From positions 6,626,001 through 6,690,000 of the forward strand of contig NC_009445.1 of NCBI RefSeq assembly GCF_000026145.1: DNA of 64,000 bases. Reading direction: 5' to 3'. Within the stretch, counting starts at the first letter, position 1. Every line of letters starts with the position of its first letter. Positions 1,233 to 45,901 of this stretch are shown here, piece after piece. The notes beneath the pieces were generated by a model that was given only the letters and a program-made list of their open reading frames with translations, had not been told where the DNA came from and did no database searches. The position numbers were made by a program, and so were the translations under genes. This stretch comes from Bradyrhizobium sp. ORS 278. Its GTDB lineage: Bacteria; Pseudomonadota; Alphaproteobacteria; Rhizobiales; Xanthobacteraceae.

Positions 1233-2513
1233 ATGCATGAATCCCTGCGCGAAAAAAGCCGCTTGCGAGCCGTCACGCCTTTCTCCCAGGTGATCATCGG
1301 TGAGAGAACCGCTTATCTCGACTCCATACGGGCATTTGCTGCTATTCAGGTCCTGCTGCTGCACTTCGCTTCGGGGTTCTTGCCGGACCTGGTCGCGCCC
1401 TCACCCGCCTCGCGCTTGGCAGCTGCTATTCACGGCTCCCCGCTCAGTTTCCTCTACGACGGCACTTCGGCAGTCTACATTTTCTTCTGCTTGAGCGGCT
1501 ACGTCTTGACCCGATCGTTCCAGCGCGATCCCTGCTCCATGCCGCGGCAGATGGCTGCGCGAGCCGTCCGCCTCGGATTGCCAGCATTGGCCGCCACGGT
1601 GTTTGCCGCGAGCGTCATCCTGCTGTTTGGCAAGGCCAATGTGCAAGCCGGTTTGCTCACCGACAACGCTTGGCTGAGCAAACAATGGAATATCGATGTC
1701 TCAATGTTGTCTCTCTTGAAAGACGGAGTCTTCAACGCGCTTTTTCTGGGCTATCGCGATGTCCCGGGCATCGGGCTTCTCGCTCCATGGCAGAACAGGT
1801 TGAACGAGTCTTTTGTTGCACCGTTCTGGACGCTCAGCACTGAGTTTTATGGATCAGTCATGATTCTCGTCCTCTGCCGGTGCGCCCGGCAGGCGCCACG
1901 GATTTGGCTTGCGATTGCGATCCTGGGAACGCTCTACACGATACGGAGCGCCTATATATGCTTTTTCGTCGGGCATCTGCTCGCTTCGGTCCGTTACGCC
2001 GACAGGCCGGCGTCTCAACGAAGGCCAATAGCGACCATCTTTATCCTCACTGGATTATTCTTATGCGTGATCGCCGAGGTGTGGCAGCCGGCCTGGCTTA
2101 TTCGTTTGTGCTCTCTGGATACGGTATGGTTGTTTCCAGGGCAGTTTCCTCCGATGCAGCACAAGGCGTTCGGCGCCATATTGATCCTGATCGGCATCAT
2201 GGATCATCAAGCCTGCCGGGATTTCCTGGGCCATCCGCGACTCGTCGGGCTGTCGAAATTCTCGTTCCCGCTCTATCTTGTTCATTGGCCTGTTTTATGT
2301 GGCCTTTCATCGACAGCCTTCGTGGCATTGAGCGAGATCTGGAGCACCGAGTCGGCAAGGATCCCTGCCATCTTGCTAGGCCTAGCAGCGAGTGCCGCAG
2401 TCAGCTATGCATTCCGGCCGGTCGATCGGTGCGCGATTTGGCTATCGTCCCGGATACGTATCTCACGCCTACAACAGCAATTGAGTTTGCCGATCAGTGA
2501 GGCACGGGCCTAG
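1233..2513 (+). CDS. Acyltransferase 3 family membrane protein
   Basis: A 426-residue polytopic membrane protein of the acyltransferase-3 family (PF01757, OafA/YrhL type), which moves acyl groups onto sugars or lipids from the inner membrane. The N-terminal family signature is clear: D30, R33 and H44 in YLDSIRAFAAIQVLLLHF, followed by about ten hydrophobic segments. A second conserved block, FWTLSTEFYGS, lies near residues 197-207. It has no linked pathway genes that would name the acceptor. The start gives a natural cytoplasmic N-terminus of about 25 residues. The role in O-acetylation of exopolysaccharide or LPS is inference from the family only. Confidence 0.85.
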   Translation: MHESLREKSRLRAVTPFSQVIIGERTAYLDSIRAFAAIQVLLLHFASGFLPDLVAPSPASRLAAAIHGSPLSFLYDGTSAVYIFFCLSGYVLTRSFQRDPCSMPRQMAARAVRLGLPALAATVFAASVILLFGKANVQAGLLTDNAWLSKQWNIDVSMLSLLKDGVFNALFLGYRDVPGIGLLAPWQNRLNESFVAPFWTLSTEFYGSVMILVLCRCARQAPRIWLAIAILGTLYTIRSAYICFFVGHLLASVRYADRPASQRRPIATIFILTGLFLCVIAEVWQPAWLIRLCSLDTVWLFPGQFPPMQHKAFGAILILIGIMDHQACRDFLGHPRLVGLSKFSFPLYLVHWPVLCGLSSTAFVALSEIWSTESARIPAILLGLAASAAVSYAFRPVDRCAIWLSSRIRISRLQQQLSLPISEARA

Positions 2514-10672: not shown

Positions 10673-10925
10673 AGGTCGCACCCCGCGCCCAGGACGTTCT
10701 GGATGCCGATGCTGCGCGTCAAGCAGGTTGTCGACTAACGGCGGGCCGCCATGTTCCGCTCGCCGCGGAGCTCGGGGCGGGTATACCATTCGGGGCTAGA
10801 ACCACGGCCGTTAAGCCGAAGTGCCGGCGAATTCCGGTTTGTCGCGCCAGATTCGAATCGGTACCGCCGACGTCGGTCGACTTGTAAAACACGTTTGTTG
10901 GCCCATACTGGCATCATCACGCATC

Positions 10926-10981
10926 CCGTTTCCTCCTCTGAGGTACGGCCCCCGTTCACGCCTTCCGGCGTGACGGAAGGC
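10926..10981 (+). ncRNA. Two-hairpin leader RNA element, copy A
   Basis: CCGTTTC at 10926 is followed by a small hairpin (CCTC / GAGG, 10932-10943) and a second hairpin GCCTTCC / GGAAGGC (10960-10966 with 10975-10981) with loop GGCGTGAC. An alternative pairing CACGCC / GGCGTG is mutually exclusive with the second hairpin. The element ends 12 nt before the start codon of the next gene. A second copy with compensatory stem changes lies at 17215-17270. Confidence 0.55.
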
Positions 10982-10993
10982 ACAATCAGAGAG

Positions 10994-11287
10994 ATGACCA
11001 TGGGAGAACTGTCGTCGTATCTGGCGATTGCCGGACTTGCTCATCGCCAGGCAGCCGAACTCAAGCAGGCCGTTGCCGACGGTGCGCAACACTTTCCGAA
11101 CGGAGAGCAGACTTTCCTTGCCAGCGAGATCGCGTGCTGCGAGGCGGTCATCGCTTCGGTCCGTGCGGTGTTCGCACAGCACTTCAGGGTTCTGGAGTTC
11201 TCTGCCGATGGAAAGGCGGCAGCTCGTATCCCGCCTGCTCTGCGGGATCTGATGAGCGAGGAGGAACCTACCATCGTCGAAACATGA
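10994..11287 (+). CDS. Small hypothetical protein behind a structured leader
   Basis: 97 residues from ATG 10994 (ATG 11000 is an alternative). Predicted all-helical: GELSSYLAIAGLAHRQAAELKQ, then a region with paired cysteines (EIACCEAVIASVRAVF) and an acidic C-terminus. No family is recognised. It is preceded by the leader element at 10926-10981 and followed at once by a terminator at 11292, so it is a single-gene unit. Such isolated, leader-controlled small genes are typical island accessory genes. Confidence 0.6.
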   Translation: MTMGELSSYLAIAGLAHRQAAELKQAVADGAQHFPNGEQTFLASEIACCEAVIASVRAVFAQHFRVLEFSADGKAAARIPPALRDLMSEEEPTIVET

Positions 11288-11291
11288 CGGA

Positions 11292-11310
11292 TGCCCCGCT
11301 TTGCGGGGCA
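11292..11310 (+). terminator. Stem-loop terminator
   Basis: TGCCCCGC and GCGGGGCA form a perfect 8-bp stem with loop TTT, 4 bp after the preceding stop codon; the following T-run is weak (CTCGTCGTTT). It may serve both converging genes. Confidence 0.6.
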
Positions 11311-11320
11311 CTCGTCGTTT

Positions 11321-12079
11321 CTATGGCCTGAAAAGCTCTATCAAATTGAATGATTCAACGTTCTTTTCGCAGTCACGGGCAAGTTCTGCGAGGTCTTCCT
11401 CGAACTGCTTATAGATGTACAACGACTCATCTTCCCCGACGCCCCTTTCATACACATGAACGAAACCGGCGTTGTAGCGCTTTTCAATCGGGTAGTAGAT
11501 GGCCATGACCTTCTTCTCGGTCATCACTGCCGAATAGGTATTGAAGCGTCGATGTCCGTAGATGCGGAGATTCTTCAAGTTGTCCCATATCCCGTCACAT
11601 AGAAGCCGAATGGAATCTCCGATCTCGGCTTGTTGGACCTCAGTGTTCTTCGTGCTCACGTCCGCAATCGGTTTGATGAATGGATTCTGCGGGTGAAGCA
11701 CGAAAATGTCCGTGCGACGCCCCTCTTGCAGTCGGCCACGAAGAGTTTCCAGGTGTCTGGGCAACCACATTTTCATGTCGTTAAATACAAGTGTGAGATG
11801 TTCCGCACTTGCAAGTTCGGGATTGTAGTTTCGGCCGTTCGCCGGATACAGCAATCCGGATAAGCCGTACGGAAGCGACGACTTTCCCTGAGCTGGGAAT
11901 AGCTTCTCGTAGAGATGATCTACCGCCGTCCGAACTACTTCGCTTCGGTGGCCCATTTTGACGGGGTCTATGGGGATGCCAAGCGGCTCCGCCAGCTCGT
12001 CGACTTTCTTGCGGTACGGCTGCTTTGCGTAAATGACCATTCTGTTCTCGTCCGAACGTCTACCTTTCCCTTCTGCCAT
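11321..12079 (-). CDS. Hypothetical protein with ribbon-helix-helix-like N-terminus
   Basis: 252 residues from ATG 12079, chosen because a GGGGGG run lies just before it; the frame stays open to 12127. Residues 12-60 (MVIYAKQPYRKKVDELAEPLGIP then RSEVVRTAVDHLYEKLF) look like a ribbon-helix-helix or similar small DNA-binding segment. The rest, from LTLVFNDMKMWLPRHLETLRGR, has alternating strands and helices with a short FVLHPQNPF segment. It may be a ligand-sensing or phospholipase D-like fold, but the HxK motif of that family is missing. Function unknown. It converges on the small gene before it. Confidence 0.55.
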   Translation of the reverse strand: MAEGKGRRSDENRMVIYAKQPYRKKVDELAEPLGIPIDPVKMGHRSEVVRTAVDHLYEKLFPAQGKSSLPYGLSGLLYPANGRNYNPELASAEHLTLVFNDMKMWLPRHLETLRGRLQEGRRTDIFVLHPQNPFIKPIADVSTKNTEVQQAEIGDSIRLLCDGIWDNLKNLRIYGHRRFNTYSAVMTEKKVMAIYYPIEKRYNAGFVHVYERGVGEDESLYIYKQFEEDLAELARDCEKNVESFNLIELFRP

Positions 12080-12322
12080 TAAGCCCCCCTGACCTGCCAC
12101 GCCATCGATTACAGCACCAAAAGCCACGTTGTAATACCTCTATGTCACCACCACGCACACCCTACTGCACTAACCACGGCACTACCTGAGGCACGCAGCA
12201 GGACGCCAGCTGTAACACCTTGTGGCATCTTCACTTCTACCCGCATCAAATGGCTTTCTCCGCAAACCTTCGAGGCTCGACCCTCTCGAAGCCCATGAAA
12301 AGCGCCTGACGCGGAGCCCTCC

Positions 12323-12700
12323 ATGACAGACTTCAGCCATTTGCTGCTGCATTTCCTCGCCCTTGAAATCAAAAGCGAAATCCTTGAGTGGCCCGCGGTC
12401 TCTACTCCAGATACCGCGATCGATCCCACCGAAGAAGCCTTGCTAAGGGAATTTCGTCCCATCCATCAATCATCCGCTGGTCCGCGTGAAGGCCGGTTTC
12501 AGCGAATGGAGAAGTGGAGCAACGGCAACCCCGTCGCCTACTATCAGGCGTTCTGCCGTAACCCGGAGACCGGAAAATTCGAGCGGTATGGCTGGCGCTA
12601 CATGCTGTCAAACGGCCAGCTGATCCTGCACAAGACATTCCCTGTCCTGAACAAGGATTACGAGAAACGAGAATCAAGGAGCGCACGGGCCGCCAGATAG
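12323..12700 (+). CDS. Hypothetical protein upstream of the rolling-circle Rep
   Basis: 125 residues, with GGAG 6 nt before the ATG. The C-terminal half is aromatic-rich (WSNGNPVAYYQAFCRNPETGKFERYGWRYML), the N-terminal half acidic. It ends 12 bp before the Rep gene and starts the plus-strand block that runs through Rep to the FtsK-like gene. No family recognised; an accessory replication or regulatory role is suggested only by position. Confidence 0.6.
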   Translation: MTDFSHLLLHFLALEIKSEILEWPAVSTPDTAIDPTEEALLREFRPIHQSSAGPREGRFQRMEKWSNGNPVAYYQAFCRNPETGKFERYGWRYMLSNGQLILHKTFPVLNKDYEKRESRSARAAR

Positions 12701-12712
12701 GGGAGCCGAGCG

Positions 12713-13930
12713 ATGCTCTCCGAGCCCAGCATCGACCCGCTCCAGCACGAATGGATGGGAGCTGCGAGCAGCCAAGTTCTGCTCGGCCTCGATGCTCGAC
12801 CGGATTTCATCTGTGAGCAGATCGACCCGCCCGTAGATTTACGGGATCGGGACAATCTGCCCGACGTCGGCAAACGACTTGGCAAGGTCGGACGGCGCGA
12901 CTTCCAACGCCTTCAGCAGGAAAAGCTCGCAATCGCCGAGAGCCTGAAGGAAGCCGGCCGCGACGAAGACGCCGGCCTGCTCCGAAACTGCTGCACCAAC
13001 CTCATCATCGATAAGTACGAGAAGGGTCGCCGGGTACGCGGCCCCAATGAATGCAAGCACCCTCTGTGCCCGACCGCGCAATTGGCACGCCAGCGGCGGA
13101 CCTATCGACGCGTCGCACAGGCATTGGAGCGCTACCTGCGACGCAAAGAGGGAATGGTGGGCATCATGCTTACCACCACCATGGAGAGCTGCCCGTCGCA
13201 TGAACTGCGCTACCGCACGGGCCAGCTGATCGCAGCCTGTTCACGGCTCATGACCTTTGCCCCGGTCAAGCGGGCGGTCGCCGCCTACGTCAGGGTCATT
13301 GAATTCACCCGCAACGCGGTGACACAGCTGTGGCACCCTCATGCCCATTGGCTTCTGCTGGTGCCGAAGTCCTACTTTGCCAAGGGCAGCAAGACCTTCA
13401 TCGACCATGACCGATGGAGCAAGCTGTTCCGCAAAGCGCTGCGCTGCGCGTACACGCCTATCGTTGATGTCCGTGTCGCGAAAGGGGTGTCGTCCCCGCT
13501 TTCCGAGGCGGGACTCAAGCCCCTCCGTGAGATCGCCAAGTACACCACCAAGCCCGGCACGCTGGTCTACTGGGACAACGGCATGCCGTACGCGGTCGGC
13601 CGGCAACGGCCTGAGCTGTATCGCAAAGCCAAGGGCGCGCCGCTAGAGCCGATGTTCAACGTGCCGGTGATGGCGCTGGCAGACGCCGTCAAAGGCCGCC
13701 GCCTGGTCGCTCTGTCGCGCAATCTCGAAACCGACGAAGAGCTGGATTTCACGGACGACCCTCGCGGCGACGAGCTTGATCAGACCACCGAAGATCTCGG
13801 CGCCTTCATCTGCACCGAGTTCTACGAGTGGCGCGGTCGCGGGCGGCACGGCGATTACTTTCTCGTCGGTCGCTCGTTCGACGAGCCCGGTCAACACAAA
13901 CGCAAGGAGGGATTCGCAATGGGGCCGTGA
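12713..13930 (+). CDS. Rolling-circle replication initiator (HUH endonuclease)
   Basis: 405 residues. HPHAHWLLLVP at about residues 208-218 is the HUH metal-binding motif of Rep_1-type rolling-circle initiators, and EIAKYTTKP at about 271-279 supplies the Y-x-x-K active-site tyrosine motif. Such proteins nick a double-strand origin and stay covalently bound to the 5' end. Upstream, a Cys/His patch (CCTNLIIDKYEKGRRVRGPNECKHPLCPTAQLARQ) probably binds zinc. The downstream genes encode small proteins and an FtsK-like translocase. A Rep of this type could also act as a relaxase for conjugation; sequence alone does not decide. Confidence 0.85.
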   Translation: MLSEPSIDPLQHEWMGAASSQVLLGLDARPDFICEQIDPPVDLRDRDNLPDVGKRLGKVGRRDFQRLQQEKLAIAESLKEAGRDEDAGLLRNCCTNLIIDKYEKGRRVRGPNECKHPLCPTAQLARQRRTYRRVAQALERYLRRKEGMVGIMLTTTMESCPSHELRYRTGQLIAACSRLMTFAPVKRAVAAYVRVIEFTRNAVTQLWHPHAHWLLLVPKSYFAKGSKTFIDHDRWSKLFRKALRCAYTPIVDVRVAKGVSSPLSEAGLKPLREIAKYTTKPGTLVYWDNGMPYAVGRQRPELYRKAKGAPLEPMFNVPVMALADAVKGRRLVALSRNLETDEELDFTDDPRGDELDQTTEDLGAFICTEFYEWRGRGRHGDYFLVGRSFDEPGQHKRKEGFAMGP

Positions 13931-13999
13931 GCATGGATCTCGAGTTCGGTTGCGTTAGTTGCGTTGCGTTTCCCTCTCACCATCCACATGGAGACTGAC

Positions 14000-14335
14000 A
14001 TGTCTGACTTTACTGATGCTGATATCGTCGTCCGCGGCACGAGCCGTGGCGTCCGCGAGAGCCGCAACGAGCGGGGCCAGATTGTCGGCCACTCGGTGCA
14101 GCTGGTCAAGCGCAATGCCAAGAATGGCATTGAGGTCTTGCAGGTGCGCCTGCCTGAGGGCGCCGATCCCGCCAACTACGCCGACGGTAAGCCGGTCGAG
14201 CTGGTGGCGGATATCTCCTCGTACGAGGGCACGATGTACTACCGCGCCACCCGGGAGATCCTGCACGCCAAGCCGGTCGACAGCCGCACGGCTGAGCCGG
14301 CGCGCAAGCCGTCGACCGCGACCGCTCTGAGCTAA
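14000..14335 (+). CDS. Small protein, possible single-stranded DNA-binding protein
   Basis: 111 residues starting MSDFTDADIVVRG, with GGAG 5 nt before the ATG. The body is beta-rich (GHSVQLVKRNAKNGIEVLQVRLPEG, then PVELVADISSYEGTMYYRATREI), consistent with a small OB-like or gene-5-type fold, and the C-terminal 20 residues are basic and flexible. Rolling-circle elements often encode a single-strand binding protein at this place, directly after Rep. That role is inference from fold and context, not from a recognised motif. Confidence 0.5.
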   Translation: MSDFTDADIVVRGTSRGVRESRNERGQIVGHSVQLVKRNAKNGIEVLQVRLPEGADPANYADGKPVELVADISSYEGTMYYRATREILHAKPVDSRTAEPARKPSTATALS

Positions 14336-14398
14336 GCGCATACAGCGGGTCGGGCAATGGCGCCCGGCCCGGTTCTCTCGATCTCAGGAGATGAAACC

Positions 14399-14623
14399 AT
14401 GAGTGATGCGGATGTTGCGGCGGCGAAGTTCGCCGCGATCAACTGGGAGACCCTCGACGTCAGCGCGGTGTGCGCGTTCTACGACCAGATCGGTCGACCG
14501 CCGGGGGAGCGCGCTCTCCTAGTGGCGCCGATCGACCCAGCGAAGCGCGACGCCTGGAAGCGGCGGTGTATCGCCGATCTTTCGGCCATGCAGGTCCGTG
14601 CCTGTCCGACATGCGGGGCGTGA
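14399..14623 (+). CDS. Small protein with C-terminal CPTCG motif
   Basis: 74 residues from the ATG preceded by AGGAG at 8 nt. It is acidic to neutral and helical, and ends with RACPTCGA, a CxxC pair that could bind zinc alone or with a partner. A GC-rich hairpin (14349-14366) sits between it and the previous gene. It belongs to the Rep-FtsK transcription block. No family is recognised. Confidence 0.6.
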   Translation: MSDADVAAAKFAAINWETLDVSAVCAFYDQIGRPPGERALLVAPIDPAKRDAWKRRCIADLSAMQVRACPTCGA

Positions 14624-14627
14624 ATGC

Positions 14628-14653
14628 AAGGCCGCGCAATGCCGCGCGGCCTT
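14628..14653 (+). promoter_or_regulatory. GC-rich stem-loop inside the Rep-FtsK gene block
   Basis: AAGGCCGCGC and GCGCGGCCTT pair perfectly over 10 bp with a 6-nt loop, between two small genes and 27 bp before the next start codon. There is no U-run, so it is more likely an attenuator or mRNA-stability element than a strong terminator. Confidence 0.4.
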
Positions 14654-14680
14654 GGCCTCATTGGCAGGGGAGACAAAATC

Positions 14681-14917
14681 ATGAACGACAATGCGGAGAA
14701 AAGGCTGGCGGCGTACGAGACCGGCTATATGTGCGGCCCCGCGTTCGTGGCGTTGGATGACGTGCTGATCTGGGCGCGAGCGGTTGCCGAATTGCCCAGG
14801 CAACCGCTCGCCGACCGATCCGGCGATGACGGCGACGCAGCCGGCCACGAACAACACGACATGCATGTGGCCGCGCGGCAAGAGCGCCTTGCGGCGTTAA
14901 GGAGGGCCGCAGAATGA
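14681..14917 (+). CDS. Small hypothetical protein, overlaps the FtsK-like gene
   Basis: 78 residues from the ATG with AGGGGAG 8 nt before it. Contains a predicted amphipathic helix (GPAFVALDDVLIWARAVAELPRQ) and a His/Asp-rich stretch (DDGDAAGHEQHDMH). Its stop overlaps the start of the FtsK-like gene in ATGA, so the two are translationally coupled and the product is probably an accessory to the translocase. No known family. Confidence 0.6.
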   Translation: MNDNAEKRLAAYETGYMCGPAFVALDDVLIWARAVAELPRQPLADRSGDDGDAAGHEQHDMHVAARQERLAALRRAAE

Positions 14918-16386
14918 GCGCCTTCAGCCGCGGCGAGCAGGTGTACGACAGTAGGATTTACGATGTCGCGAGATGGGGATTCGGGGTGCCTACCGTGTAT
15001 TGGGACCCGCCACCCCGCCCAGCGGAGTTCGCCTTCGGGCCGGAGCCCTTCGAGATGTGGGGCGTGCCTTTCGAATATTATATTCCGAAGGGGTCGCGGC
15101 AGGCGTACCTGGTGCGATCCGGGCACAGCGAGGTTTACGCCGATTTCGCCATGAAGCTCATGCTCGGCCGCTTCGCGCGCGAGGCGACGAGGACCTTCGC
15201 CGTGAAAGCGTACGCCGGCGTGACCGAGCATGAGAGAAAGCAGACGATTCTGCGCGAGGCGGCGACGTTGGCCGAGACCAAGTGGTTTGGTGACCTGGAG
15301 GCCGACAAGGAGCGCGTTCTCCGCGAGCTGCGCGCCGGCCGCGAGGCGAAGCTGTCCCGCGACTGGGCTAAAGAAGCATCTCAACCAGATGCCGATGCCG
15401 CCAAGCGCAAGGAGGCGCTGACGACGGCCGAACGGGAGATCGGCCAGGCCGATAAGTCTCGCCTCCAGGCGCTGCGCAAAGCAGAGCAGGAGATCGCGGC
15501 CGCGCAGCAAGCGCGCGAGAAAGCTGCACGCGAGGCGCAATGGGCGATCGAGAGCGCTGCACGCGATCGAGAAAGCCAGGCACGGGAGGCTGCCGAGCAG
15601 GCGCGTGTCCTGAAGCTCTCCCGGCCGATTCCGCTGGCACCGCAGCCTGGCGGAATTGTCTTCGGCACGCGCATCAAGGATGGCGTCGATTTCGTGGTGC
15701 CGCTGGCGCACCTCCAGCACATCTTGCTCAGTGGCGTCTCGGGCGCCGGCAAGACCGTGCTGCTCCATGCGCTGCTCCATCAACTGGTGCAGTCCGACCA
15801 GGTTGAACGGCTGGTGCTGATCGATCTCAAGGGGGGCGTATCGTTCAACAGGTATCGCATCAGCCCCAAGGTCGAGGTGATCTATGAGATGGCCGACGTC
15901 ATCAGGGTCATTGACCAGGTGATGGCACTGATGGTGCAGCGGCAGAACTATATGCGCGAGAACGGCATCGAGTTCTGGCGGCAACGCCGTACGTTCCTGG
16001 TGATCGACGAATATGCGGAAATCCAGACCGAGATCGACGCGGCCGACACCAAGGAAGCCAAGGCAGAAGCCAGACGCCTTGCGGCGAACCTGGCGAGCAT
16101 TTCCCGGCGAGCGAGGGCGCTGGGAATCGTCATGGTCTGTGCCCTGCAACGGCCGACGACGGACGCCATGGACGCGGCCGTGAGAAACAACCTGAGCTGC
16201 CGGATCTGCCTGCGGGCGGCGACGAGCCAACTCGCGGCCTCGATGCTGGACGACCTGGAGCGGCTGCCCGTACGGCCCACCGAGCTGCCGACCGGCGAAT
16301 TCTACTACTATGACGCCAGCCGGGGTCTGACCCGGCTGCTCAAGGCCCAAATTGCGCCTGGCGTCGATCTCGCGGATCTTTTCTGA
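14914..16386 (+). CDS. FtsK/SpoIIIE-like DNA translocase
   Basis: 490 residues. Residues 1-110 are unassigned, 120-240 form a long charged coiled coil (KRKEALTTAEREIGQADKSRLQ and on), and 245-470 are the FtsK/HerA ATPase with Walker A GVSGAGKT near residue 275 and Walker B FLVIDEY near 361, followed by SISRRARALGIVMVCALQRP, the usual sensor region. No transmembrane helices are obvious. In Rep/FtsK-type integrative elements such ATPases pump double-stranded DNA between cells or assist replication. Here it sits last in the block that begins with the HUH Rep. Confidence 0.85.
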   Translation: MSAFSRGEQVYDSRIYDVARWGFGVPTVYWDPPPRPAEFAFGPEPFEMWGVPFEYYIPKGSRQAYLVRSGHSEVYADFAMKLMLGRFAREATRTFAVKAYAGVTEHERKQTILREAATLAETKWFGDLEADKERVLRELRAGREAKLSRDWAKEASQPDADAAKRKEALTTAEREIGQADKSRLQALRKAEQEIAAAQQAREKAAREAQWAIESAARDRESQAREAAEQARVLKLSRPIPLAPQPGGIVFGTRIKDGVDFVVPLAHLQHILLSGVSGAGKTVLLHALLHQLVQSDQVERLVLIDLKGGVSFNRYRISPKVEVIYEMADVIRVIDQVMALMVQRQNYMRENGIEFWRQRRTFLVIDEYAEIQTEIDAADTKEAKAEARRLAANLASISRRARALGIVMVCALQRPTTDAMDAAVRNNLSCRICLRAATSQLAASMLDDLERLPVRPTELPTGEFYYYDASRGLTRLLKAQIAPGVDLADLF

Positions 16387-16471
16387 CATCGTCGAGGGCG
16401 GAGGTGAGCACGGCGCGCGCCAGCGCGCCGCGCGCAGCCGACGCCCCTTTCGTACATACCTAAGAAACAAA

Positions 16472-16948
16472 TCATGGGATTTGTCCCCCAAGGGCAAGGC
16501 TGGTCCGGTGAACGGGGGTCGAACCGTCCCGGGCAATATAGCTGGAAGGCAACGCGGCGGTCTCAGGGGTGCGCGAGTGGTAGGCAGCAAAGGCGGTAGC
16601 CCCGACAATGAGCAACACTAAGAGCGCGAAGCAATCGACCGCGAATTGTCGGCGGCGTGCAGCGTCTCGGCCAGCCCGTACGGCCTCGGGGGATGGTGGG
16701 TCAGGTTCATAGCCCCGCTGCCAGGGCAAGCGCAGGGGATGAGGACGGCGAACGTCGATGCCGAGGCTCACGCCGTCCCAGTCGTTGTTACTGGTCAGCA
16801 CATTGCGCAGGTACTTGGCCAGCAGGTCATCGTTTCTGCGGGGTTGCGGGTTGTCGGCGTCACGCTCGGCAAACCATTCGCGCAGGTCTTGAATGGTCTG
16901 CTCATCGGTCTTGATGATGAGGGTCGTTTTCCATGTTTGGATGTCCAT
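16472..16948 (-). CDS. Hypothetical membrane-anchored protein
   Basis: 158 residues. The N-terminal half is hydrophilic (TLIIKTDEQTIQDLREWFAERD), one transmembrane helix lies near residues 106-125 (FALLVLLIVGATAFAAYHS) and about 33 residues follow. With positive residues before the helix (RDAARRRQ), the N-terminus is predicted cytoplasmic. It points against the FtsK-like gene. The ribosome-binding site is weak. Function unknown. Confidence 0.55.
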   Translation of the reverse strand: MDIQTWKTTLIIKTDEQTIQDLREWFAERDADNPQPRRNDDLLAKYLRNVLTSNNDWDGVSLGIDVRRPHPLRLPWQRGYEPDPPSPEAVRAGRDAARRRQFAVDCFALLVLLIVGATAFAAYHSRTPETAALPSSYIARDGSTPVHRTSLALGGQIP

Positions 16949-17214
16949 GGGTCACACTTTCTGTCATTGGTTCTTCTTGGTTGGCCAATGCAGCGACCGA
17001 CCGGGCGCGCAAGCGCACGGGCGGAGCTGCAATTTCCTTGATACCTCGGCGTTTTTGACTGGGACTTGGCGGCCGTTTCCGCTCAAGCTAGTATGCAGGC
17101 ACGGCTTCGATTGCGAGCAACCGAAGTCGAGAGCCCCGATTGGATGCGGGGCTTTTTCATCGTTAGTGCTTGTAAAAGACCCCAACCGTCCCACAATAGA
17201 TTCATCCACACCTG

Positions 17215-17270
17215 CCGTTTCGCCCCTGGGCGATCGGTCTCTCGTCACCGCCTCCGGGCGTGACGGAGGC
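17215..17270 (+). ncRNA. Two-hairpin leader RNA element, copy B
   Basis: CCGTTTC at 17215 is followed by a hairpin CGCCC / GGGCG (17221-17232) and a second hairpin GCCTCC / GGAGGC (17250-17255 with 17265-17270) around loop GGGCGTGAC. Motif order and spacing match copy A at 10926-10981 (34 and 35 nt from CCGTTTC to the second stem), while both stems differ in sequence and keep pairing. It ends 20 nt before the ankyrin gene. Confidence 0.55.
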
Positions 17271-17290
17271 CTATCCACGGGGAATTTACT

Positions 17291-17869
17291 ATGAACGAGC
17301 TACTCAATGCCGCTCGCGAGGGCGACACAGCCATGGTCGAATCCTTGCTCAGCGAGGGTGTGGCGATCGATCTCCAAGACAAGTACGGCACCACCGCGCT
17401 GATGCTGGCGGCCCTTAACGGCCGCACCGCCACCGTGGAAGCTCTGCTCGCCAAGGGCGCCGCAATCGATCTCCAAGACAAGTACGGCGAAACCGCGCTG
17501 ATGCTGGCCACGCACAATGGCCACACCGCCGTTGTGGAAGCCCTACTTGCCAAGGGAGCGGCGATCGACCTCCAGAGCAACAACGGCTTCACCGCGCTGA
17601 TCTGGGCGGCTTACTACAAACACACCGCCACCGTGGAAGCTCTGCTCGCCAAGGGTGCGGCGATCAATCTCCAGGACAGCGACGGCTTCACCGCGCTGAT
17701 CTGGGCGGCTTATCGCGGACACATCGCGATCGCGGAGGCGCTGCTCGCCAAGGGAGCGGCGATCGACCTCCAGGACAGCGACGGCAGAACCGCGCTGACG
17801 TTGGCGGCCTTCGTGGGTCACACCGACATCGTCAACCTGCTCAAGGCGGCGAAGCAGCCTACGGCCTGA
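17291..17869 (+). CDS. Ankyrin-repeat protein
   Basis: 192 residues made almost wholly of five to six ankyrin repeats of 33 residues with the phrase TALMLAALNGRTATVEALLAKGAAIDLQDKYG recurring in variants. No signal peptide, so probably cytoplasmic; ankyrin repeats mediate protein binding. The DNA repeats are very similar to one another, which suggests recent duplication or gene conversion. The gene has its own leader element and terminator and so is a free-standing unit of island cargo. In many elements a small ankyrin protein acts as an immunity or inhibitor protein, but no partner is adjacent. Confidence 0.85.
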   Translation: MNELLNAAREGDTAMVESLLSEGVAIDLQDKYGTTALMLAALNGRTATVEALLAKGAAIDLQDKYGETALMLATHNGHTAVVEALLAKGAAIDLQSNNGFTALIWAAYYKHTATVEALLAKGAAINLQDSDGFTALIWAAYRGHIAIAEALLAKGAAIDLQDSDGRTALTLAAFVGHTDIVNLLKAAKQPTA

Positions 17870-20415: not shown

Positions 20416-21588
20416 ATGGCTAAGAGCGCGAAGGCCTTGATCAACCCGGCCATGCTCGCATGGGCGCGGGAACAAGCCGGGATCAGCCCGGACGAAGCCG
20501 CTCGTCGTCTTCACATCGAAGAAGACCGCCTGAGCGCCCTTGAAAAAGGGGATGAGACACCGACCTTCGCCAAGCTGCTGGAGATTGCGGATCTCTATAA
20601 GCGCCCGGTCAGCCTGTTCTACCTAAAAACCCCCCCTAAGGGTTGGCAGCCGATACAGGACTTTCGGCGGCTACCTGGCGTCGACAGCGGCTTTTCTCCG
20701 CAGCTTACTTACGCCATTCGACAGGCTCGGGAGCGCCGTGAAATCGCGCTCACCGTCCGCGACGAACTTGGCGAGCCGGCCCGGCCCTTCGAGTTGAAGG
20801 CCACGCTGAAGACCGATGTTGAAATGCTCGGCCAGGAGATCCGAGAATACGTTGGCGTGACCGAAGCCAAGCAACAGCGTTTCGGCCGCAAGGCGTTCGA
20901 TGGCTGGCGAACGGCTATAGAAGCCAAGGACATTCTCGTGTTCGTGGTGCCCCGGCTAAAGATCCGTGAGATGCGTGGCACGGCTCTGGCCGAACAGAAA
21001 ATGCCGGTGATCCTTATCAATGGCAAGGATCGGAGCAATGGCCGCGTGTTCACGCTTCTGCACGAGTTCTGTCACTTGGCCCTAAGGCAAAGCGGCGTGA
21101 GCAACATGGGCGGCGACAGAAACGACGCGCCTCACCCCGACGTCGAGAAATTCTGCAACGCGGTCGCGGCCGCTGCCCTTATGCCGCGCGACTGGCTGCT
21201 TCGAGAACAACTAGTTGCGCAGAAAGGCAGCCAGAAGAGTTGGCGGGACGACGAATTGGACGCTTTAGCTCTGCGCTTCGGCGTCAGTCAGGAAGCTGTA
21301 CTGCGACGGCTGCTGACGCTGGGGCGAACGACCCAGGCCTTCTATGACAGCAAGCGCGTCGATTTCCAGAAGATCTATGCGCAACTCGATGAGCAGAAGG
21401 AGCCTTCCGAAGGTGGGCCAAAGTACCACCATGTTGTGCTTAGTCAGCTCGGCAGGACGTTCACCCAGCTTATCTTTCAAGGCTATCACGATCGCTACTT
21501 TACGCTGCGCGATGTCGCAGGTCTTCTGAACATGAAGGTTACGACCGTTCCCGTGATGGAAAAGGCAGCCTTTGGCATGGCGGGATAG
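20416..21588 (+). CDS. XRE-family regulator with ImmA/IrrE metallopeptidase domain
   Basis: 390 residues. Residues 10-65 are an XRE helix-turn-helix (AWAREQAGISPDEAARRLHIEEDRLSALEKG). The C-terminal part has the ImmA/IrrE zincin motif HEFCH (in LLHEFCHLALRQSG) and the downstream helix EKFCNAVAAAALMPRDWL. This HTH plus COG2856 architecture is the usual antitoxin partner of PIN-like DUF4411 toxins, and the DUF4411 gene follows after only 6 bp. It may repress its own operon and be inactivated by cleavage. GGGGGA precedes the ATG. Confidence 0.85.
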   Translation: MAKSAKALINPAMLAWAREQAGISPDEAARRLHIEEDRLSALEKGDETPTFAKLLEIADLYKRPVSLFYLKTPPKGWQPIQDFRRLPGVDSGFSPQLTYAIRQARERREIALTVRDELGEPARPFELKATLKTDVEMLGQEIREYVGVTEAKQQRFGRKAFDGWRTAIEAKDILVFVVPRLKIREMRGTALAEQKMPVILINGKDRSNGRVFTLLHEFCHLALRQSGVSNMGGDRNDAPHPDVEKFCNAVAAAALMPRDWLLREQLVAQKGSQKSWRDDELDALALRFGVSQEAVLRRLLTLGRTTQAFYDSKRVDFQKIYAQLDEQKEPSEGGPKYHHVVLSQLGRTFTQLIFQGYHDRYFTLRDVAGLLNMKVTTVPVMEKAAFGMAG

Positions 21589-21594
21589 CCTGGC

Positions 21595-22065
21595 ATGGCT
21601 AAGAAGATCTACTGCATCGATACAAGCGCTCTGATCGCCGCCTGGTACGAGCGGTACAAACCCAACCGCTTTCCGAAGCTATGGGACCAACTTGATCAGC
21701 TGGTAACGGATGGGAGGCTGGTCTCATCGACCCTCGTCCTGCGCGAATGCAACAAGCAGAGATCAGAAGAACTGCATGGCTGGCTAAAGCCACGCGAGGC
21801 CATGTTCATCTCGCCTGACGAAGCGGTGCAGCTGCAAGTTGACCACATCGTCAACACCTACACGGGCCTTGTTTCGGCCGGTAAGCAGAAGTTTCAGGCC
21901 GATCCGTTCGTGATCGCCCTAGCCAAAGTGAACAGCTACACGGTCATCACCGAAGAAACCGGTATCGGTAGTCTTGGCAAGATTCCCGGTGTCTGCAACC
22001 ACATGAAGGTGGAGTGCATCAACCTAATGCAGTTGATCGATGAAGAGGACTGGGTGCTCGGTTGA
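21595..22065 (+). CDS. DUF4411 PIN-like protein, probable toxin
   Basis: 156 residues. The N-terminal KIYCIDTSALIAAWYERY with the conserved D, a mid-protein LRECNKQ with the acidic residue, and FQADPFVIALAKVN with a further D fit the PIN-like ribonuclease fold of DUF4411. It is 6 bp behind the XRE-ImmA gene in the same direction, the classical two-gene arrangement. Expected activity is endoribonuclease cleavage of RNA, kept in check by the upstream protein. This is family knowledge and has not been shown for this pair. Confidence 0.8.
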   Translation: MAKKIYCIDTSALIAAWYERYKPNRFPKLWDQLDQLVTDGRLVSSTLVLRECNKQRSEELHGWLKPREAMFISPDEAVQLQVDHIVNTYTGLVSAGKQKFQADPFVIALAKVNSYTVITEETGIGSLGKIPGVCNHMKVECINLMQLIDEEDWVLG

Positions 22066-22191: not shown

Positions 22192-23067
22192 CTAAGCGGT
22201 AAGAACCGCCGAGGTATCAAAAGAGATTTTGGCGTGGAGCATCTCGCGGGCCAGCTCCGTTTTCCAGGACGTACCCTGTCCATAGGAAATGTAGGCGATA
22301 CCGTCAAAATCGGACGGCTTCTCCACGCCTGATTTCAGGAGCGCTGCGACATGTGCCGGGCCGAGTTTCCCGATGAAGAAGCCAAGCTCGAACACAACGT
22401 TCTGTCGCGCTCTGGGCTGAACGTCCGCGCCTGCAATGCCTCCAACATCATCTGGCGTCATCAAGACAACAGCGAAGTTGGCTCCGTCTGACTCTTCCCT
22501 GAACTTTGTCAGCAGATGGCGACCACCGTTAGGTTGCAGGTGAAGAACGATAGGAGCGAGCCCAAGGTTACGCAGAAAAAGCGCCACTTCATTCCTTGCG
22601 GCCTCGTCGCGACCGTGAACAAGAAATATCTTATTGCTCCCCGGAGTGGGCTCTGGAGCGGCTGGTGGGGCGTCTTCAGGGATCATGATTTCGATGTCCT
22701 CGCGAACAAATGATACACCGAAGGCGCGGTGCTCAATATCATTGATGTAAGTGCTAAAGCTGCCGGTTGCCCAGTCCTGGGTCAGGGCTGCATGACCTTT
22801 GGCCCACCAAAACACGTGAGGGATCGCAGTGTCATCGCGAATTTCATCGCCGATTATATACCGGCGCGCCTTGGACCGAATGAGCTTGCCGTAGGCATGC
22901 TCACAAATCCGCATTTGGGCAGCGTGTCCTGAATTTTTGAGATGCGGCTTCAACCGAGACACGGCTGAGGCCGCACCTATCCATTCAAGGCTGGCCGCGG
23001 ACTTCATGGCCTCCTGCGCCTCCTGAAGCGCCCTCGCAACGTCAACGCGCCGATCGCCGACAGCCAT
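22192..23067 (-). CDS. TIR-like nucleotide-binding domain protein (CAP12/PCTIR type)
   Basis: 291 residues. Residues 145-285 form the TIR-like domain (PF10137): NKIFLVHGRDEAARNEVALFLRNLG, then FAVVLMTPDDVGG, then NVVFELGFFIGKLG whose glutamate is the expected NADase catalytic residue. The N-terminal 140 residues are helical and unassigned. In other bacteria such domains degrade NAD+ when triggered by phage sensing or a cyclic nucleotide, often fused to STING. Here no cyclase is next to it, so it is either a stand-alone effector or works with an unlinked sensor. Confidence 0.75.
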   Translation of the reverse strand: MAVGDRRVDVARALQEAQEAMKSAASLEWIGAASAVSRLKPHLKNSGHAAQMRICEHAYGKLIRSKARRYIIGDEIRDDTAIPHVFWWAKGHAALTQDWATGSFSTYINDIEHRAFGVSFVREDIEIMIPEDAPPAAPEPTPGSNKIFLVHGRDEAARNEVALFLRNLGLAPIVLHLQPNGGRHLLTKFREESDGANFAVVLMTPDDVGGIAGADVQPRARQNVVFELGFFIGKLGPAHVAALLKSGVEKPSDFDGIAYISYGQGTSWKTELAREMLHAKISFDTSAVLTA

Positions 23068-23105: not shown

Positions 23106-24236
23106 TTAGGTGGGCCGATCAGTTTGGTCTAGCTCACCAAGCACAAGAGAATAACTGGTGCTTCGGCCGCCCGCGGCGTCTTTCTGCAGGATGCCACGCT
23201 TGATCAAGTCGTCAATGTCGCGCGTGGCGGTCGGCTGCGAGACTTTGGCTATCTTCGCCCATTTCGACGAGGTGAGCTTCCCCTCGAAGCCGTCGAGCAC
23301 GCGATTCAGCAGCAATCTCTGCCGGTCGTTGAGAGCGGTTGCCCCGTGCTTCTCCCAGAAGGATGCCTTCTGCAAGACATTCCTCAGTATCGTGTCGGCA
23401 CCGTCGAACGCCCTCCCCAGGCAACTGAGAAACCAGTCGAGCCAGCTGGTAATGTCGAGGCTCCCACGCTGGGTTCGCTCAAGGATGTCGTAGTACGCTT
23501 TCCGCTCCTTCCGGATCTGAGCGGACATGCTGTAGAAGCGCTGTGTGCTTTCTTCGGAACGAGCGAGCGCCAGATCGGCGATTGCACGCCCGATTCGTCC
23601 ATTGCCGTCCTCGAAGGGATGGATAGTCACAAACCACAGATGGGCAAGCGCGGCCTTGATCACAGGGTCCTGGCCCTGGTCGGCGTTGAACCACTCCAGG
23701 AAGCCCTTCATCTCGGCTTCAAGCCGCCTGGCAGCCGGCGCTTCAAAGTGAACGCGCTCGCGACCAAAGGCTCCTGACACCACTTGCATGGGCCCCGTCT
23801 GGTCGGTACGCCATCCGCCAACCGTGATCTTTTGCATCCCGCTTCGTCCCGTCGGGAAGAGGGAGGCATGCCAGCCGAAAAGCCGTTCCGCGGTCAAGGC
23901 CTGGTCGTATTTCTGGGTTGCATCGAGCATCAGCTCGACCACTCCCTCGACGTGCCGTTCAGAGGGCGTAAGGGCGCCAATGTCCATCCCGAGCCGGCGG
24001 GCGATCGACGATCGCACCTGGTCGCGGTCCAGGATCTCGCCCTCGATCTCGCTCGACTTGACTACCTCCTCGGTCAACGTCTGGAGGGAAGCCTCCGCCT
24101 TCAGCTGGAACCCCAGACGCTCCATCCGACCAAGCAGCCGCCCCTGCTTATGGCGAACCAGAGCGAGCGTTTCGGTCAGCTTTTCGGTGTTCCACTCGAA
24201 GTCCGGCCACTCCGCTCTTTCATGAATATAAACCAC
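23106..24236 (-). CDS. Fic-family protein with DUF4172 N-terminus
   Basis: 376 residues. HPFEDGNGR at residues 206-214 is the complete Fic AMP-transferase motif, and SSEIEG at 61-66 matches the inhibitory helix motif (S/T-x-x-x-E-G/N), so this is a self-inhibited class II Fic protein. Residues 1-85 fit DUF4172. The C-terminal about 70 residues contain a winged-helix-like segment (QPTATRDIDDLIKRGIL). Target unknown; AMPylation of a host or phage protein is the expected activity. It is divergent from the XRE/nuclease-like gene with 144 bp between them, which suggests shared control. Confidence 0.85.
   Translation of the reverse strand: MVYIHERAEWPDFEWNTEKLTETLALVRHKQGRLLGRMERLGFQLKAEASLQTLTEEVVKSSEIEGEILDRDQVRSSIARRLGMDIGALTPSERHVEGVVELMLDATQKYDQALTAERLFGWHASLFPTGRSGMQKITVGGWRTDQTGPMQVVSGAFGRERVHFEAPAARRLEAEMKGFLEWFNADQGQDPVIKAALAHLWFVTIHPFEDGNGRIGRAIADLALARSEESTQRFYSMSAQIRKERKAYYDILERTQRGSLDITSWLDWFLSCLGRAFDGADTILRNVLQKASFWEKHGATALNDRQRLLLNRVLDGFEGKLTSSKWAKIAKVSQPTATRDIDDLIKRGILQKDAAGGRSTSYSLVLGELDQTDRPT

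Positions 24237-44257: not shown

Positions 44258-44286
<29 letters not shown>
44029..44286 (+). CDS. Small protein coupled to the integrating recombinase
   Basis: 85 residues from ATG 44029 (an upstream start at 43999 is possible). Acidic N-terminal half (DGAAPGVQDTTSESDSKDALLRFVR) and a short C-terminal helix (ALARAAAIADYERQNR). It overlaps the recombinase start by 29 bp, so they are translationally coupled. Its position suggests a regulator or directionality factor, but it is not basic as most excisionases are, so this is a guess. Confidence 0.55.

Positions 44287-45901
<1,615 letters not shown>

Follow-up and report, generated by a model that had tools for sequence, protein, structure and literature searches.

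A promoter-leader module with two predicted, mutually exclusive RNA folds precedes unrelated genes in Bradyrhizobium sp. ORS 278 and related genomes

Why does the same short structured sequence stand in front of two genes that have nothing in common? The question is raised by a 64,000-nucleotide stretch of the 7.46-Mb genome of Bradyrhizobium sp. ORS 278 (contig NC_009445.1, positions 6,626,001 to 6,690,000), hereafter the window, in which the original prediction described two covarying two-hairpin leaders. Both are found exactly at 10926-10981 and 17215-17270, and the stems CCTC/GAGG versus CGCC/GGCG and GCCTTCC/GGAAGGC versus GCCTCC/GGAGGC are present as described. The genes behind them are indeed unrelated: one encodes a 97-aa protein without a Pfam family (10994-11287) and the other a 192-aa ankyrin-repeat protein (17291-17869; all window features given for the two leaders lie on the plus strand). 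The hairpins are only part of a larger unit of promoter-like site, leader and Shine-Dalgarno (SD) region, which includes a predicted helix between an anti-SD segment and the SD that had been overlooked. We propose, with a probability of about 0.62, that this unit is a promoter-leader cassette whose RNA works as a bistable translational switch for the gene behind it.

The two copies of the repeat, A (10881-10993) and B (17169-17290), become similar 45-46 bases upstream of the noted leaders, at a promoter-like CTTGTAAAA-N12-CCCATACT or CCCACAAT. In copy A the site (10882-10909), assigned from its conserved position among copies, consists of TTGTAA (10882-10887), 16 nt and CATACT (10904-10909); in copy B (17170-17197) it consists of TTGTAA (17170-17175), 16 nt and CACAAT (17192-17197). 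These 16 bases correspond to the spacing of sigma-70-family promoters, and a strict sigma-70 consensus scan made no call at the site of either copy. In the portion of PMC4842269 on which we draw, the RpoD-type promoters of B. japonicum are given as TTG-N(16-18)-TATA, and CTTG is named for RpoH promoters too; an assignment to RpoH was rejected, as the two are not separable on what these portions of PMC4167512 and PMC4842269 contain. The transcript probably starts at the conserved CACGCAUNCCGUUU or a few nt upstream of it, near 10916 in copy A, and the conserved block would therefore span approximately the RNA start to the SD. A pattern of leader features, devised after seeing the data, matches twice in the window, a number reached in none of 100 shuffles. 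Each 56-nt leader is equaled or surpassed in folding by 2 of 200 dinucleotide shuffles, and the leaders with flanks (131 nt and 121 nt) by 7 and 14 of 200.

The module is not confined to the window. A covariance model built from three copies (R1; the two window copies and one in B. lablabi, G024) matched only copies A and B in the whole own genome at E<=1 (4.8e-23 and 1.5e-22, with both copies part of the model). At E<=0.01 it matched 7 of 242 genus genomes, including the own genome and G024, the new ones being G103, G142 (Bradyrhizobium sp. CSA207), G153, G203 (Bradyrhizobium sp. YR681) and G244 (B. pachyrhizi PAC 48). A second model built from 14 copies (R2) matched 19 of 265 genus genomes at E<=0.05 and, at E<=1e-7, 15 places in 7 genomes, namely its own 14 training copies and G103. 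It also added a divergent copy, L093 (G244:C96, E 1e-4), counted on the strength of its letters rather than its score; a reading of the 12 weaker genus places revealed no leader. Among 347 genomes of the order, R2 at E<=0.001 gave one match besides the own genome, in G676, which belongs to another family (45.9 bits, E 1.9e-10) and has its copy on a 33-kb contig that also bears mobilization genes. In total we count 16 leader copies in 7 genomes, L093 and the two window copies included. The covariance-model search envisaged in the original prediction thus yielded 14 further copies, 13 in five other Bradyrhizobium genomes (G024, G142, G153, G203 and G244, the last with seven copies within 8 kb) and one in G676. 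The G103 locus (L041 1501-1605, minus strand) keeps the promoter, CCGTTG and the hairpins; it is possibly a decayed copy and was left uncounted.

Wider searches returned little else. Among 248 family, 337 class and 229 phylum genomes the leader was seen in the own genome only, the weak matches having been read and the phylum-set match L152 found not to be a leader; these sets overlap, are drawn evenly from larger groups and were searched with strict filters, so absence is not proven. The original prediction had also suggested a search of pseudomonad elements, which is not borne out: the sets searched yielded no copy from beyond the order. Thirty loci of weak model matches, read letter by letter, contained no leader. 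One of them, L112 in G142 (1501-1540, minus strand), has only the promoter-like part: CTTGCAAAA..GTCCCATACT..GCAAT, resembling the form that precedes leaders, with no leader behind. BLASTN found no match for leader A in plasmids or leader B in phages; with L037, L040 and L128 it returned 33 plasmid records with short partial matches, of which H22, H27, H29 and H30 were read and none was a leader, the remaining 29 being judged on the listed partial matches only. A first, loose pattern matched 65 times in 60 genomes (own included), three matches being leaders (two own, one in G024). A strict one, which would miss forms like B, L040 and L048, found 12 stretches in genome contigs, five of them leaders from four Bradyrhizobium genomes and seven, once read, chance matches; it had 0 matches in viral contigs.

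By comparison of the copies, the best supported helix of the module is the predicted anti-SD/SD pairing, P4. Wherever a gene follows the copy, loop and 3'-arm bases of the first hairpin, P1, are complementary to that gene's own SD region, usually over 5-8 bp. The pairs are CUCUGA/UCAGAG in copy A (10936-10941 with 10986-10991), CCCCUGG/CCACGGGG in copy B (17223-17229 with 17275-17282, one bulge), CUCCGG/CCGGAG in G676, UCCAU/AUGGA in L093, CCUUUGGG/CCCGAGGG in G142 and CCAAGGCA/UGCUUUGG in G153; L043b has only 3 + 3 interrupted pairs. Because an SD and a pyrimidine-rich loop pair anyway, the anti-SD and SD partners were exchanged among copies. For 12 leaders, a set that includes four near copies from G244, own partners reached -11.8 kcal/mol versus -8.4 for swapped ones (standard deviation 0.8), and none of 20,000 shuffles was as good (P<5e-5). 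The result was similar with 8 types (P=5e-5), 6 types (P=0.0013), 10 leaders in an earlier run (P=1.5e-4), 9 types with G676 (0 of 50,000, P<2e-5) and two 7-type sets (8e-5 and 1.8e-4).

The remaining hairpins are P1 and two competing versions of the second one. P1 spans 10926-10948 in copy A (CCG 10926-10928 with CGG 10946-10948; CCTC 10932-10935 with GAGG 10940-10943) and 17215-17237 in copy B (CCG 17215-17217 with CGG 17235-17237; CGCC 17221-17224 with GGCG 17229-17232). S1 (10953-10975, CGT-t-CACGCC/GGCGTG-ACG, in A; 17243-17265, CGTCA-c-CGCC/GGCG-TGACG, in B) and S2 (10960-10981, GCCTTCC 10960-10966 with GGAAGGC 10975-10981, in A; 17250-17270, GCCTCC 17250-17255 with GGAGGC 17265-17270, in B) are alternative pairings of GGCGTGAC. 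Since both compete for the same strands around GGCGUGAC, they cannot form together; by our reasoning, an H-type pseudoknot of the two would have its 3' strands adjoining, with no loop to separate them. The competing GGCGTG pairing "as in a switch" anticipated for this region is present, with S1 and S2 excluding each other.

Swap tests favored own partners for S2 (P<5e-5 for 12 leaders, 0.0013 for 8 types, 0.033 for 6, 8e-5 for 9 and 0.005 for both 7-type sets) and, at higher P values, for S1 (0.0066 for 12 leaders, 0.015 for 8 types, 0.033 for 6, 0.009 for 9 and 0.024 for one of the 7-type sets). In 8 variants, S2 has standard pairs in 51 of 52 cells, its segments having been placed by hand, which favors pairing; its changes include C-G to U-A at position 2 (copy C and L045) and at position 3 (L048). 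In P1, three of the four inner pairs are changed on both sides among 15 distinct rows. In an alignment fitted by R2, which favors P1 and S1, 92.9% of cells pair, a share that none of 500 column shuffles (87.8%) reached, and 4 pairs, three in P1 and one in S1, are changed on both sides versus 1.7 when shuffled (24 of 500 as high). The covariation originally claimed for the stems is thus borne out by swap tests, both-sided changes and the S2 cell count. Sequence comparison supports the element, its spread, P1, P4 and S2, and S1 less strongly. It likewise points to a pair of folds that exclude each other and are both maintained by compensatory changes, with S1 the weakest case; covariation and modeled folding together indicate that one of the folds closes the SD, L043b and in part L037c being exceptions.

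These elements could be combined as follows. P1 excludes P4, and S1 excludes S2, because the bases are shared. In a transcript that would begin about CACGCAUNCCGUUU, an OFF fold would pair the loop and 3' arm of P1, as anti-SD, with the SD region (P4), enclosing S1 and closing the ribosome site. In an ON fold the anti-SD would be locked in P1 (CCG-UUU-C..G-NN-CGG), leaving the SD free, while the 3' strand next to S1 would be taken by S2 (GCCUCC/GGAGGC) and the 5' end CACGC (10918-10922 in copy A, highly conserved; its copy B counterpart to CACGCA is CACACC, 17207-17212) may pair with GCGUG in the S2 loop. We infer that the folds interconvert in the cell, that a trigger exists and that the 5'-end pairing forms. 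The likeliest trigger would be a protein or RNA, from the element or from the cell, with the S2 loop or the conserved 5' segment as its binding site; a trans factor would most likely make contact at the 5' block, which the OFF fold leaves mostly unpaired. Antisense matches to this block in the own genome numbered, besides the leaders, 41, all with 2 mismatches, versus 28 for the control pattern, and none stands out. An intrinsic-terminator attenuator was rejected for the window copies, in which no U run follows S1 or S2 and no terminator is called inside either leader.

Several observations weigh against such a switch. The swap P values are inexact, the copies being related, and the helices were chosen after seeing the sequences. 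In 4 of 9 types no SD pairs better with the anti-SD than the own one, ties included, whereas in 5 of 9 another copy's SD does; the match is therefore a tendency. S1 fails in the other 7-type set (P=0.118). The pairing of the 5'-end CACGC with the S2 loop has no support over swapped controls (P=0.15 for 12 leaders, 0.054 and 0.11), carries a mismatch in copy B and is lost in G153, and a pairing between the linker and b' likewise has none (P=0.49, 0.095 and 0.33). L093 keeps the anti-SD and an S1-like hairpin, and has neither P1 nor S2; G103 has no evident SD or gene despite its promoter and hairpins. In predicted transcripts modeled at 37 C, SD/anti-SD pairing is near nil in L037c (0.04) and L043b (0.06); when truncated at its first ATG, L037c does take up the OFF fold, and L093, folded separately with its own start codon, shows the pairing. 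For most copies the OFF fold lies well below the ON fold in the model; OFF is therefore its default state, and ON would require either some source of energy or an outcome decided while the RNA is being transcribed. Our searches found no ligand or trans factor.

Part of this evidence would fit a simpler reading, to which we give a clearly smaller share of belief, in which P4 and S1 statically keep the SD partly closed so that the moved gene is weakly expressed, with no switching and S2 as a by-product. Such a damper agrees with the missing trigger, with the divergent L093, which has OFF elements only, and with the dominance of the OFF pairing in the modeled ensemble of 12 of 15 copies (0.55-0.93 at 37 C). 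It also agrees with the energies: S2 forced with a free SD tail lies 3.3 (A), 4.0 (C) and up to 12.5 (L037c) kcal/mol above the free minimum free energy among 12 copies, values that exclude the 5'-end pseudoknot, which the program cannot score. It leaves unexplained, however, why P1 and S2, unneeded for damping, are kept with compensatory changes, and why CACGC-AUN-CCGUUU, a 5' block with few pairs in the OFF fold, is conserved. A thermometer, in which heat would melt P4 and free the SD, is less probable still. The SD is closed within a helix, and the CTTG..CCCAT form of some promoters resembles rhizobial RpoH promoters as far as the consulted portions of PMC4167512 and PMC4842269 describe them. 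Against this, modeled SD pairing drops by at most 0.12 in any copy over the range 20-45 C, with L038 and L037c showing a rise, in what is a model only; the second conserved fold would be unneeded, the G676 promoter is RpoD-like (CTTGTA-N17-CTATAT), and the downstream genes that can be named are not heat-shock genes. That the palindromes act as DNA, as a recombination site, single-strand promoter or cassette boundary, is very improbable: seven copies in 8 kb in G244 and nearby coupling, relaxase, ArdC or resolvase genes would suit it, but the conserved block has the orientation of the gene and extends from the predicted transcription start as far as the SD, the gene itself supplies one pairing partner in its SD, and the promoter-like site lies outside the hairpins.

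The bistable switch is also to be set beside known leader RNAs. Rfam 15 at the gathering threshold gave only a tRNA in the window, and a search at a relaxed threshold of the surroundings of A, B and the G676 copy gave nothing at gathering (best E 1.1); the original prediction had named such a match as one that would remove novelty. Nor did we find a description of the leader in titles and abstracts on Bradyrhizobium thermometers, promoters and start sites, RpoH promoters, riboswitches of mobile elements or ankyrin genes, or conjugative-element RNA motifs, which is no proof of its absence from print. Translational riboswitches with pseudoknotted aptamers, such as SAM-II and preQ1-II, share with it a short leader, closure of the SD or its neighborhood by a distant loop and exclusive folds; unlike them, the leader has no Rfam match and no known ligand, and its unrelated downstream genes show no metabolic theme. 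ROSE RNA thermometers occur in Bradyrhizobium and have an Rfam entry. They resemble the leader in sequestering the SD, and in the same genus; they are mentioned in the consulted portion of PMC4167512. The leader differs in having no Rfam match, genes other than small heat-shock genes, a second conserved fold and a modeled SD pairing nearly flat with temperature. Corbino et al. in 2005 reportedly described alphaproteobacterial leader motifs, families from which are in Rfam; these too are structured leaders found by comparison, but none of those families matched. Conjugative leading regions carry single-strand promoters (Frpo/ssi), which likewise place hairpins near mobile-element genes, whereas the promoter-like site of the leader is outside its hairpins and its structure ends at the SD.

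The genes behind the leaders vary between loci. The 97-aa protein has a partner of 85 aa, 46% identical, behind the same leader in G203, and no TBLASTN match in plasmids. A homologous ankyrin protein stands behind copy B and behind six of the seven leaders on contig C20 of G244. At L049 6858-12986 in that genome, six successive ankyrin frames (one of 61 codons) each have their own promoter and leader, and the array looks as if it had grown by duplication of leader plus gene. Leucine-rich repeat (LRR)-like proteins, so called from a reading of their repeats (two were tested, with no Pfam match above the cut-off), stand behind leaders in G024, G142 and, twice, G244, one being a short form behind L093. 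The G024 protein had TBLASTN matches in 19 plasmid records, and among 257 genus genomes searched, five others carry LRR-like homologues, none of them preceded by such a leader. The G676 leader precedes a 59-aa protein, without a Pfam match, that is present on many small plasmids; 12 of its plasmid homologues (34 records found) have a different upstream region. Short frames follow the leaders of G153 (about 30 codons) and G244:C54 (32 codons, then a 321-codon frame).

In small plasmids of Rhizobiaceae, Mesorhizobium, Xanthobacteraceae and Methylorubrum (L140-L146, L149, L151), another conserved region is located in the 220 bases ahead of a small-protein gene, which mostly lies before a DNA methyltransferase or DUF3768 gene. 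It has a hairpin like GACCGGCCGCGAAGGGCGTGGCCGG just 5' of ACGGGAG and, further upstream, an SD-complementary CTCCCGT or CCCGTTGG. By eye it may represent a second, wider leader family; R2 gave no match on these regions.

The leader module occupies several different loci, most with mobile-element genes nearby, though no transfer gene was seen for G142 and G153. In the window these are genes for a coupling protein, Rep_1, an FtsK-type ATPase, ArdC, an integrase, ParA and a replication initiator. G203 has the 97-aa-type gene, a 125-aa gene, Rep_1 and FtsK in the same order; G244:C54 has homologues of the window integrase, ParA and initiator; G676 has a coupling protein and MobA/MobL, and the G024 stretch a coupling-protein homologue. 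The window has its ArdC gene 1.1 kb past the ankyrin gene; G244 has one a short way past the LRR-like leader. The view of the RNA as a regulatory module of one element needs amending: it is common to unrelated genes, and is not private to the element. Overall, the original interpretation is partly supported.

Other features of the window lie apart from the leaders. A large serine recombinase gene (44258-45901) ends overlapping a tRNA-Met on the other strand, possibly one end of an integrated element; an alignment of 205 residues with its G244 counterpart shows 95% identity, the compared stretches breaking off within both frames. A few kb past the second leader, a helix-turn-helix/IrrE-type peptidase protein with a DUF4411 protein (20416-22065), a CAP12/Pycsar-type TIR effector protein (22192-23067) and a Fic-domain protein (23106-24236) possibly form a defense or toxin-antitoxin cluster.

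To our knowledge, most leader switches serve one pathway. With the cassette, mobile elements would place unrelated accessory genes under one signal. It is rather unlikely, though conceivable, that this amounts to a new class of RNA switch on mobile elements of Hyphomicrobiales, responding for example to entry into a new cell and acting on genes for ankyrin, LRR-like and small plasmid proteins, some of them near ArdC anti-restriction or coupling-protein genes. The natural variants of anti-SD, SD and hairpins are ready test constructs, and with the covariance model others can look for more genes that belong to the set. Should the switch prove real, it would provide a common control for unrelated accessory genes in symbiotic bacteria and their relatives.

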